Assembly (NCBI RefSeq): GCF_009905375.1
Contig: NC_133653.1
Span: 68,892,920-68,956,919 of the forward strand
Length of the DNA stretch: 64,000 bases
Source: Apium graveolens
Lineage: Eukaryota; Streptophyta; Magnoliopsida; Apiales; Apiaceae
Reading direction: 5' to 3'
The notes beneath the pieces were generated by a model that worked only from the letters and a program-made list of their open reading frames with translations, ran no database searches and was not told the DNA's origin. The translations under genes were made by a program, and so were the position numbers. This document shows positions 1,842 through 11,210 of the stretch, one piece after another. Every line of letters begins with the position of its first letter. Position 1 is the stretch's first letter.

Positions 1842-3617
1842 ATGACATATGACTTACAAGTTTCCTTCAATTCTGAAGCCTGTGTTGTCACTAGTAAGAA
1901 AGACAACAAAGTGGTTCTAACTGGAGTTAGAAAAGGAAATGTGTACTTAGCTGACTTCAACTCTGCAAATGCAGAATCTATTACTTGTCTCTTCAGCAAA
2001 GCAAGTTCAGTTGAGAGTTGGTTATGGCACAAGAAGCTATCCCATTTAAATTTCAAGACAATGAATGATCTAGTCAAAAAGGACCTAGTAAGAGGAATTC
2101 CTCTTGTTGAATTCTCAAGGGATGGTTTGTGTGATGCTTGTCAGAAAGGCAAACAAAGGAAAGCATCATTCAAAAAGAAGCTTGAAACAACAATTGATGA
2201 ACCATTACAGCTGCTACATATGGATTTGTTTGGACCAGTCAATGTATTGTCAATTGCAAGAAAAAGATATTGCTTAGTGATTGTAGATGATTTCTCAAAG
2301 TTTTCATGGGTCTATTTTCTTGGATCAAAGAATGAAGCAAGTAAAATCATTATCAATCACATCAGGCAAGTCAATAATCATCCTGACCTGAAGGTTAGGA
2401 ATATCAGGAGTGACAATGGAACTGAATTCAAGAATTTATCAATGAGGCTGTTCTGTGAAGAAAATGGAATCATGCATGAGTTCTCAGCTCCAAGAACACC
2501 TCAGCAAAATGGGGTAGTTGAAAAAAAGAACAGATCTTTAATTGAGGCTGCCAGAACAATGCTTGAAGAATCAAAGTTACCAACATATTTCTGGGCTGAA
2601 GCTGTTAATTGTGCCTGTTTCACTCAAAATATCTCTTTGATCAATCAAGCTAAAGGCATGACTCCTTATCAGTTGTTCAAGAGAAGAAAACCAACTCTAA
2701 ACTTTCTTCATGTCTTTGGATGTAAATGCTTTATACTAAGGAATCAATCTGACCATAAAGGGAAGTTTGATGCAAAGGCTGATGAAGGGATATTTGTTGG
2801 TTATTCAGCTGGAAAATCTTATAGGGTCTACAATCTAAGAACCAACATTGTTATGGAATCTGTGCATGTTGTGTTTGATGATAAAAAGATTGATGGACTA
2901 ACAGATGAGGGACAATATGAGAGACTCAAATTTGACAACATTGAGATATATTGTGATGATAGTGAAGAGGAGACTGATGGAGATAACACTTCAAAAGGGA
3001 TTCAAAACATGCCCTTGGATAATGCACAAAATACTGCATCCGTTGAAAGTCAGAATTCTGCATCCGTTGATAGAGGCAATGCAGTATCCGTTGAAAGATA
3101 TGGTGTATCATCCGTTGAAGTACTAAATGAAGCATCCGTTGATCATAGTTTATCAACGGATAATCGATTTACATCATCAGTTGATAGAACTCCAAGTTCC
3201 CTGCAAAGGACCAACAACTCAGGGGGAGTTTCAACTAGTCAATACTCTGTCTCACATCATGACAATACTGAGGCCACCTCATCTAGAGCACATCTTCCAC
3301 TTCAAAGGAAATGGACCAAGAATCATCCCTTTGAACTGATCATTGGTGATGCATCATCTAAAGTGCAAACAAGAAGAGCTACTCAAGATGAATGTCTGTA
3401 TAGTAGTTTTCTATCTCAGGAGGAACCTAAGAAAGTGGAAGAAGACTTATTGGATCCAGATTGGATATTAGCTATGCAGGAAGAGCTAAACCAATTTGAG
3501 AGAAACCAAGTTTGGAAGCTGGTACCCAAACCAAAGAACAAGAGTCCTATTGACACAAAATGGGTATTCAGAAACAAGATGGATGAAAATGGCATTATCA
3601 TAAGGAATAAAGCCTGA
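1842..3617 (+). pseudogene. pol: Copia-B pol, integrase half and RT start, ended by a TGA
   Basis: The 591-codon frame holds the pre-integrase zinc region (H63, H68, C97, C100), then the integrase core with catalytic D128, D191 and E227 (contexts LLHMDLFGP, IRSDNGTEF, QQNGVVEKKN). A copia C-terminal part with WAEAVN, VFGCKCF and VFDD-type motifs follows, then the start of RT (KWVFRNKMDENG). Integrase would insert the cDNA into the host chromosome. The frame ends with TGA at 3615-3617 in the conserved RT stretch RNKA...LVAKGY, and the next ORF continues in the same frame, so this is a nonsense mutation and not a gene end. Upstream of 1842 the homologous frame is readable only with shifts. Residues ~395-450 hold repeated SVE/SVD tripeptides encoded by the 9-mer. 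Confidence 0.9.
3038..3184 (+). repeat. 24-bp-periodic ATCCGTTGA array inside pol
   Basis: Exact ATCCGTTGA copies start at 3038, 3062, 3086, 3110 and 3134, exactly 24 bp apart. An opposite-strand copy (TCAACGGAT) starts at 3153 and a one-mismatch copy (ATCAGTTGA) at 3176. In the pol frame the copies read S-V-E/D. The segment lies in the variable linker between integrase and RT. Confidence 0.92.
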
Positions 3618-4949
3618 TTGGTTGCTAAAGGCTATTCTCAGCAAGAGGGAATAGATTTTGATGAGACATATGCTCCTGTTGCAAGACTTGAAGCCATCAG
3701 AATTTTTCTAGCCTATGCAGCTCATGCCAATTTCAAAGTCTATCAAATGGATGTCAAGAGTGCATTTCTAAATGGGAAATTAGAGGAAAAAGTCTATGTA
3801 AGTCAACCTCCAGGATTTGAAGATCCAAATTTTCCAGACTATGTATATTATCTGTTGAAAGCACTCTATGGACTGAAGCAAGCACCTAGAGCCTGGTATG
3901 AAACCTTATCAAAATTTCTTTTGGAGAATCACTTCACTAGAGGTACTGTTGATAAAACTCTCTTCTTTAGGAATGTTAATGGCTCTAGTATACTTGTTCA
4001 AATTTATGTAGACGGCATAATATTTGGTTCTAAAGATGATAAACTTTGTAAAAAGTTTGCTAAGCTAATGCAAAGTAATTATGAAATGAGCCTTATGGGA
4101 GAACTAACCTATTTTCTTGGTTTACAAATTAAACAAGTTAGTAATGGAATTTTCATTAGTCAAACTAAATATATTCATGATCTTTTAAAGAAGTTTGACT
4201 TAATGGAATGTTCATCTGCAAAAACTCCCATGGCCACTGCCACCAAACTTGAATTAAATAAGACTGAAAGGTCTGTGGACATTACAAGTTATAGAGGCAT
4301 GGTTGGTTCACTTTTATATTTAACTGCTAGCAGACCAGATATAATGTTTGCTACATGTCTGTGTGCTAGATTTCAAGCTGATCCTAGGGAGTCTCACTTA
4401 ATAGCTATCAAAAGGATTTTCAGATATCTCAAGGGTACACCAAATTTAGGTATTTGGTATCCTAGAGAATCTGGCTTTGATCTAATTGGTTATTCAGATG
4501 CAGACTATGCAGGTTGCAAAATAGACAGGAAAAGTACAACAGGCTCCTGCCAATTCCTGGGAAACAAGCTTGTATCATGGTTTAGCAAAAAGCAAAATTC
4601 AGTCTCTACTTCTACAGCTGAGGCTGAATACATTGCTGCTGGAAGTTGCTGCTCTCAAGTGTTATGGATGAGAAATCAACTCCTTGACTATGGACTTCAT
4701 GTTGATAGAATTCCTATCTTTTGTGACAACACAAGTGCCATAGCCATAACAGAGAATCCTGTACAGCACTCAAGAACCAAGCACATTGATATCAAGTACC
4801 ACTTCATTAGGGAGCATGTCATTAATGGTACAGTGGAACTACATTTTGTTCCAAGTGAACAACAAATTGCAGACATATTTACCAAGCCACTTGATGAATC
4901 AACATTCACAAGATTAGTAAGTGAGCTAGGTATGCTTAATTACTCTTAA
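3618..4949 (+). pseudogene. pol: Copia-B pol, reverse transcriptase and RNase H half
   Basis: In frame with the preceding piece. It starts at LVAKGYSQQ, the copia RT core, with VYQMDVKSAFLNG, LKALYGLKQAPRAWY and the active-site block QIYVDGIIFGS at residues ~128-138. The copia consensus there is YVDD; here the second catalytic aspartate is glycine (GGC at 4014-4016), which should abolish polymerisation. RNase H follows (SDADYAGCK from ~293, then TAEAEYIAA, CDNTSAI and the end block ADIFTKPLDE) and ends at a TAA before 4950. The rest of the frame is intact, so most of the coding capacity was lost by point mutation. The product would copy RNA to cDNA in the virus-like particle. Confidence 0.92.
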
Positions 4950-10181: not shown

Positions 10182-10195
10182 AAATAGGGGGAGAT
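10182..10195 (+). other. Polypurine tract of Copia-B
   Basis: AAATAGGGGGAGAT directly before the TGTTAGG start of the 3' LTR, the expected plus-strand primer. Confidence 0.92.
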
Positions 10196-11210
10196 TGTTA
10201 GGAATATATGTGCATTAGTTTGATGATATGTTTAACAAAACACTTAAGTAGAAATTCAGTGTCTGTAGCCTCAACGGATAAGACCACTTTGGCTATCCGT
10301 TGATGGTGTAGCTTTACTTAGAAATAAGTCTAGTGTTGTAGCATATTTCAGTCTCTGTATTTAAGATGTAATTCTTAGAAGTTGAGAGAAACTATGAGTC
10401 ATGTTGACTACTAGAAGATATGCAGATAGGAAGGCCAATTGTAAATATTTCATGCCTTGTAATTTTGTATAAATGAAGTGGTATCAACGGATGACTTAAA
10501 GACCTTCAACGGATGAGAAGCTAAGCTTCAACGGATGTCTCTAAAGCTTCAACGGATAACATCCTTCAACGGATGAGTGCATCAACGGATGAAAGCTTCA
10601 ACGGATGTTCTGTTGATTAACCGTTGATAAGTGGTAGTTGTACCTACAAACAGAGGCACGTGGGTGAACAGAGATAACTGAAATGTGGCAGCCTAATTTC
10701 AGGAACATCAGAAAAAGCAGTCGTTCTACTCTAGTATAAAGAGACATTAAGTCAACAAAGTACTGGAGTGAACTGGAGAAGAAACAAGTGGAGATCTTAC
10801 TTTATTATTTTATAATATCCTTGTCTTCACTTGTAAACTTGGTAATATATAAACCAAGTAGTAGCTAGTAATTAGATAAGAATTTTTCCAGAGCTGTTTA
10901 GAAAAATCTTGAGAGAAAAATTATCTAGTTTGTACTAGGATGTAGCTGTGATCAAATTCTTAGATCACAGAATTTCTGAAATACCATCTCTGGTGGAACA
11001 ACAAATCCACCAAATTTTTTTTTAAAGGTTTATTGTGTTCTTTACATTTGTGTTTGAATATATATCTGTCTGTATCAGCTTAAAGCAATTCACACACTTG
11101 TTCATCTTGAACACACAGTCTTTATAAACTGCTCAAAACTTGAAAAAGTTTTGAGATTTACATTCAACCCCCCTTCTGTAAATCTCATTGTTAGTTCTCT
11201 AGAAATAACA
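10196..11210 (+). repeat. 3' LTR of Copia-B
   Basis: Begins TGTTAGGAATATATG right after the PPT and ends CTAGAAATAACA, giving matching TGTTA/TAACA termini and a length of 1,015 bp. U3 holds nine copies of the 9-mer (10271-10606) and a TATA box, TATAAA, at 10735-10740. The TTCAACCCCCCTTCT block at 11163-11177 is typical of plant copia U5 ends. The 5' LTR is outside the window, so age and TSD cannot be read. Confidence 0.9.
10484..10606 (+). promoter_or_regulatory. TCAACGGAT array in Copia-B U3
   Basis: Seven same-strand copies start at 10484, 10506, 10528, 10549, 10566, 10582 and 10598 (steps of 22, 22, 21, 17, 16, 16). They end ~130 bp upstream of TATAAA at 10735. An opposed pair lies further up (10271, 10295). 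The reverse complement contains CCGTTG, which fits the plant MYB type-I consensus CNGTTR; the forward strand contains AACGG, the core of the MSA element bound by MYB3R proteins. Known parallels are the U3 repeats of tobacco Tto1 (bound by NtMYB2) and Tnt1. MYB binding here is inferred. Confidence 0.75.

Follow-up and report, generated by a model that had tools for sequence, protein, structure and literature searches.

Plant genomes contain Sireviruses in abundance, yet both the env-like gene carried by some of them and their short repeated motif (RM) are without an accepted explanation. In the sections of Bousios et al. 2010 available to us (PMC2829016), the RM is a palindromic sequence described in 13 elements, 12 of which have a CGG-CCG core. 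It is family-specific, reaches up to 32 copies, and lies in long terminal repeats (LTRs) upstream of the TATA box, in the linker upstream of env and, in two elements, at the env start; its clusters form predicted CpG islands, and no one binding factor common to these families could be identified. A second system with densely repeated short words is the DNA transposon VANDAL21, a Mu-like element (MULE) whose VANC21 protein targets the nine-base word YAGTATTAY (Hosaka et al. 2017, PMC5735166). Here we describe a Ty1/copia element of the Sirevirus type from celery, Apium graveolens, that lies in a 64,000-nucleotide stretch of contig NC_133653.1 (positions 68,892,920 to 68,956,919; hereafter the window). 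It carries a nine-base word, TCAACGGAT (minus-strand form ATCCGTTGA), that is repeated in coding and noncoding DNA and changes less than the sequence around it.

An earlier sequence-only reading of this DNA had reported 28 exact copies between 3038 and 10606, and that count is correct: six are in pol, seven in the linker between pol and an env-like open reading frame (ORF), six in the env-like ORF and nine in the 3' LTR (10196..11210; 1015 bp, TG...CA). The whole window holds 30 copies on both strands, the additional two (21238 and 21254) residing in the LTR of another element. Chance had been considered a poor explanation, and our controls agree. Dinucleotide-preserving shuffles of the 64 kb (n = 100) yield an expectation of 0.24 copies and a maximum of 1, while 3000 synonymous-codon shuffles of the coding pieces yield a mean of 0.295 and a maximum of 3, compared with the 12 copies observed.

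The copies are arranged in arrays (all features are given on the plus strand). Within pol, the linker between integrase and reverse transcriptase (INT-RT linker) holds five minus copies with an exact 24-nt period and one plus copy (3038..3161). The array within the env-like ORF (7152..7266) has three copies in each orientation. Minus copies are read as SVE or SVD in pol and as HPL or YPL in the env-like ORF, as had been stated; plus copies, absent from the sequence-only reading, encode STD in both. Seven exact copies make up the array of the pol/env linker (5036..5189), two inverted pairs with a 7-nt gap among them. The LTR has an inverted pair on its 5' side (10271..10303) and a direct array of seven copies with a period of 16-22 nt (10484..10606), which ends 129 nt upstream of a TATA box-like site, TATAAAGAG (10735..10743, a word match only). 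Four copies in or beside the clusters have one mismatch (3176, 5221, 5242 and 10619). CpG dinucleotides are mostly confined to the motif in 2870-3330, 4950-5300, 7000-7400 and 10197-10700, with 28 inside copies and about 8 outside.

The repetition of the celery word is a known Sirevirus feature, in print since 2010, to which the sequence-only reading makes no reference. Like the published RM, the word has a high copy number, a family-specific sequence and symmetric pairs with a CGG-CCG core, the dyad symmetry residing in the inverted pairs and the copies of the LTR array being single half-sites. Its clusters precede TATA in the LTR and also precede env, and it is present in at least 8 copies. 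It differs from the RM as described in the available sections of PMC2829016 by occurring also in gag, in the INT-RT linker of pol and midway through the env-like ORF, by half-sites that stand alone in direct arrays, and by a 9-mer that is nearly invariant; the present analysis also compares the same sites across families.

In the celery assembly of 3,332,948,439 bases, exact TCAACGGAT occurs 202,789 + 202,456 = 405,245 times, compared with 15,507 + 15,643 = 31,150 for the reversed word, and inverted pairs with a gap of 5-30 nt number 59,609 versus 0. The Sirevirus polypurine tract (PPT), AGGGGGAG, begins 10 nt upstream of the LTR (10186..10193; definition from the available sections of PMC2829016), and the exact PPT-LTR junction is found 3,959 + 3,860 times. 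Among the first 30 junctions on one contig (C1), 27 LTRs have 6-13 exact copies of the word, and the remaining three, which belong to other families, have 0, 1 and 2. Sixteen other pol stretches carry 3-5 exact copies, compared with six in the window. Arrays in gag are present in 5/5 stretches fetched from other celery elements (L115, L119, L123, L127 and L131), all of which had been selected for holding an inverted pair. In viral contigs, 49 stretches match the inverted-pair pattern with one pair each, and these are presumably chance matches or phage contigs; no relative of pol was found there.

Elements listed by the PPT-LTR junction are copies of the family that were not picked by the arrays tested, but they are known to bear the word in the LTR. 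All 30 junction LTRs entered the LTR comparison, and 28 were alignable. For pol, 20 of the 30 elements were fetched; the final three on the list were left out, as were the three from other families and four that had been sampled before. Linker and env were compared in 10 of the elements whose pol stretch aligned (10/10 for each), as a repeat of a first comparison on elements selected for an exact pair. The pol divergence set has 21 usable stretches of 25, five of them ascertained by the motif; trees and shared-variant counts use only the 16 others (of 20).

In the four regions compared, the motif changes less than its flanks. Differences from the window in motif, spacer and flank, respectively, are 45/2218, 152/2033 and 615/7825 for the LTR, 11/630, 120/906 and 260/1947 for the linker, 10/540, 49/610 and 223/2696 for env, and 32/999, 228/1320 and 612/6619 for pol. 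Wobble positions follow the same pattern: 4/180 differ within env motifs versus 19/200 and 100/903 nearby, and 17/333 within pol motifs (all 21 stretches) versus 88/448 and 274/2199 nearby. Counts of this kind are not independent because the copies share kinship, and changes were therefore also counted by parsimony on trees and as columns with shared variants. Parsimony places 63 changes in 252 motif sites and 751 in 1447 others (p = 0.045 for pol, 0.004 for the LTR, 8e-6 for the linker and 0.013 for env). Outside CpG, variants common to at least two sequences are found in 3/196 motif columns versus 312/1449 others. The proposal that the DNA word rather than the peptide is kept is thus upheld by the differing frames, by wobble variation below that of neighboring positions and by conservation above that of the flanks. 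The comparison of copies with neighboring bases across the family, which had been named as the sequence test, likewise favors the word. In the LTR, the two bases to its left are equally conserved, such that the kept unit there may exceed nine bases.

Motif CpG positions change like other CpGs, as expected of methylated dead copies: parsimony changes per site are 35/56 in motifs versus 8/16 elsewhere, and shared variants 9/56 versus 6/16. A pairwise count (50/905 versus 35/174) had hinted that motif CpGs are protected, but the tree-based count disagrees and no such claim is made. A DNA search with the LTR was set aside, as the 40 of 1,541 candidates scored were all 99-100% identical and too alike to inform.

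In a second celery family a different word, YCGACGGAT, occupies the corresponding positions of env and also occurs in gag and throughout the LTR. In 12 stretches around sites of TCGACGGAT, YCGACGGAT occurs in gag, env, the LTR and, judged by position, the linker. Its env offsets (0, 16, 39, 64 and 106) equal those of the window, and exact TCAACGGAT is absent from all 12; selection by TCGACGGAT ascertains the presence of that word, but not the absence of TCAACGGAT. Base 3 of YC[AG]ACGGAT is G in 42/42 copies from these TCGACGGAT-picked stretches and A in 439/447 from 70 junction-picked loci. Genome-wide, TCGACGGAT is found 80,620 + 79,950 times versus 4,266 + 4,305. It corresponds to the peptide HPS, and the same word was seen in other celery LTRs.

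Peptides from related species exhibit three versions of the triplet [HY][PQ][LS]. The env array was compared in 20 rows, consisting of the window and 19 of 43 relatives. STD is accompanied by HPL/YPL in the window, P0122, P0124 and Heracleum P0149, by HPS/YPS in Apium P0121 and P0123, and by HQL in Daucus P0132 and P0141. All 8 rows with at least two triplets are of a single type; two rows have one triplet and 10 Heracleum rows have none. In these Heracleum env-like proteins (P0125-P0131, P0133, P0139 and P0145), the word may have been lost or may be quite different. The same triplet types recur in gag, with HQL present twice in Daucus P0194. Among the 23 of 59 gag relatives that have at least two triplets, 15 are single-type and 8 mixed; three of the mixed relatives are so by a downstream HQL judged not to be motif, and the Daucus row P0201 mixes HPL and YPS. 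From the HQL peptides, the carrot word is predicted to be TCAACTGAT. It is unusual for a DNA word to overrule protein sequence (HPL versus HPS), as this 9-mer does by changing together in the LTR and in coding sequence from one family to another.

Other Sirevirus-like LTRs in celery were also encountered. The one at 21127-21700 in the window belongs to another family and has mixed words (ATCGACGGATGATG, TTTGACGGATAAC and two copies of TCAACGGATGATG); it is followed by TGGTATAAGAGC, which resembles a primer-binding site, and by a gag-like ORF at 21751. LTRs L088, L093 and L096 share a core that resembles ACGGATGA and varies in its left half.

The env-like ORF is in two pieces. The first (5499..8990; 1164 aa) has basic patches and a top 19-aa hydropathy of 1.33, and is closed by an in-frame TAA (8991-8993). 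The second (8994..10004; 337 aa) continues in the same frame with a C-terminal region conserved among relatives. Part of the predicted structure of the N-terminal domain (5526..6371; model residues 10-291) aligns with VANC21, a weak predicted-fold match that may reflect the fold of the solved DNA-bound part of that protein. The model of the C-terminal piece is poor (predicted TM-score 0.34) and gave no useful structural match, and no credible match came from the viral structure library. Sequence profiles give no link between the env-like protein and VANC21. Neither DUF1985 nor DUF287 is listed for the two env-like pieces or three relatives in hmmscan searches to E 5, and relative P0121 has a weak, below-cutoff match to Transposase_32 (E 0.018). 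The element is therefore not filed as a VANC member, whose defining domains it does not display.

The element may nevertheless work like a VANC system. Both have a dense nine-base word within the element, in tandem arrays that gain and lose copies, and this word differs between related families; a reader encoded by the element is known for VANDAL21 and a candidate here. However, VANDAL21 is a DNA transposon and the celery element an LTR retrotransposon; VANC motifs are mainly noncoding and in the same orientation (PMC5735166), whereas the celery word is also in coding DNA and in both orientations. Sequence homology of the env-like protein to VANC21 is undetected, and a role in anti-silencing is suggested here by analogy.

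We tentatively read the word as the celery family's version of the Sirevirus RM and as a likely tag by which the env-like protein, with its VANC21-like predicted fold, recognizes the element that encodes it, and put the chance of this a little below even. It is also possible, though rather less than likely, that the env of env-bearing Sireviruses at large encodes no envelope but a VANC-type anti-silencing factor with the RM as its address tag, tag and reader changing specificity together by family. Six env-containing Sireviruses without an RM, reported in the available sections of PMC2829016, weigh against both proposals and have slightly lowered our estimates for them. Selection would act through a sequence-specific reader of double-stranded DNA, as is suggested by the presence of the word in both orientations, by its direct and inverted arrays and by a family difference that appears everywhere at once. 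The env-like protein may be this reader, given its weak fold match. Binding could remove silencing marks at the LTR by the promoter and along the body of the element, as VANC21 does in VANDAL21. The element would spread tags over its entire length and write them into protein stretches that tolerate change, and the tags would help it to escape plant silencing. If true, the env-like gene and the motif would have one answer, and LTR retrotransposons would possess a counterpart of the self-recognizing anti-silencing known from Mu-like DNA transposons.

Host factors offer other explanations. The plant MYB type-I consensus is CNGTTR. The sequence-only reading had proposed a MYB site, perhaps linked to G2/M, and the word could be an enhancer site for an R2R3 or 3R MYB that was placed ahead of TATA in the LTR and from there copied to other parts of the element. 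The fit is real for this family, as ATCCGTTGA contains CCGTTG, and the predicted carrot word would alter only the free N of the consensus. The distance of the LTR array from the TATA-like site would suit an enhancer, and two MYB-type sites are reported for LTRs of the Copia element Rider in the accessible text of PMC6762207, which cites a MYB regulator for Tto1 and makes no mention there of copies in coding DNA. However, the reverse complement of YCGACGGAT reads CCGTCG and breaks CNGTTR in all 42 copies counted for the second celery family; a single host MYB would hardly vary from one element family to the next within the same plant, and is not supported as the general reader. Of the mitosis-specific activator (MSA) site, only the AACGG core fits, and the G2/M link is likewise not supported. 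Enhancer use alone also leaves the arrays in gag, pol and mid-env unexplained, and we consider a MYB enhancer unlikely. Bousios et al. proposed an enhancer role for motifs in the LTR, with a host factor acting on the internal copies to drive or boost a promoter inside the element that serves the env-like gene. The linker array, lying ahead of the env-like ORF, is suitably placed, and linker copies are associated with env in the available sections of PMC2829016, where such a promoter is not conclusively identified. Copies in gag, pol and mid-env, the last downstream of the env start, are misplaced for an env promoter, and this proposal too seems unlikely for the celery element.

Two further explanations dispense with a protein that recognizes the word. 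Palindromes in maize Sirevirus LTRs were reportedly the subject of work in 2016, and Sirevirus palindromes have reportedly been mentioned alongside small interfering RNA (siRNA). Inverted pairs could form RNA or DNA hairpins that serve in packaging or as a source of siRNA, and four pairs of the form TCAACGGAT-N7-ATCCGTTGA (5036/5052, 5078/5094, 7152/7168 and 7242/7258) have nine-base arms and a 7-base gap. Yet the LTR and pol copies, mostly direct, are of the same nine bases; pairing does not need one fixed word across arrays, and the word differs between families as a whole, making hairpins improbable as its basis. Neutral tandem duplication with gene conversion could keep copies alike and would account for their variable number in LTRs and pol. 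Spacers of the same arrays, however, are roughly as divergent as flanks in the LTR, linker and env and more divergent in pol, unlike the nine bases. Conversion confined to nine bases over several regions is implausible, and we regard this as the most remote of the explanations.

Measured against these rivals, recognition of the word by the env-like protein is the reading we retain. As far as our search extends, the placement of the word in gag, pol and mid-env codons is new, as are the nucleotide-level constraint relative to spacers and wobble sites, the family-specific word at matching sites and the candidate reader, encoded by the element, whose predicted fold resembles that of VANC21. No VANC-like function for the Sirevirus env-like gene is named in the literature covered, which includes the accessible portions of PMC13317346, PMC12844716, PMC11728184 and PMC11963269 but few subscription papers and no preprints. 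Among known systems, Retand elements with antisense TRP28 ORFs (PMC11963269) are similar in having an extra ORF between pol and the 3' LTR, predicted DNA binding and tandem repeats. They differ by belonging to the Gypsy lineage, by the antisense orientation of the ORF and by its Transposase_28 domain, and a short word in coding DNA is unmentioned in the accessible text.

The remaining parts of the celery element bear on its classification. Its 5' end is missing from the window, where neither gag nor a 5' LTR of this element was found. Pol is in two pieces: 1842..3614 encodes gag_pre-integrs, integrase core, SH3, the linker and the start of RVT_2, and is closed by an in-frame TGA (3615-3617); 3618..4946 encodes the Ty1/copia reverse transcriptase and the remainder of pol. 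Integrase thus precedes a copia-type reverse transcriptase, as in Ty1/copia Sireviruses, and the PPT beginning 10 bp ahead of the 3' LTR and a stretch like the poly-C integrase signal at the 3' end of the LTR (CAACCCCCC, 11165; a sequence match) are further Sirevirus features. In Sireviruses the linker typically contains several copies of the PPT, most of them past env; here the noncoding stretch after the env-like ORF has only the terminal AGGGGGAG. Further AGGGGGAG octamers lie within pol and the env-like ORF (3221, 7501, 7892 and 8383) and are perhaps a second DNA word that is maintained within codons. Among named proteins, those nearest to pol come from Apium graveolens. Downstream of the element, 12728-13141 is a piece of a related copia pol end with 74% amino acid identity to its pol.

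Other repeats are also present in the window. Related long repeats lie at 28.0-30 kb, 37.4-39.7 kb, 44-48 kb and 53.6-57.5 kb. Two of these, 9515 bp apart and up to 100% alike where both are shown, flank a minus-strand ORF of 1537 aa (48189-52802) and are possibly the LTRs of one element. At 42017-42151, a 62-nt unit occurs twice, 73 nt apart, with the two copies 85% alike.

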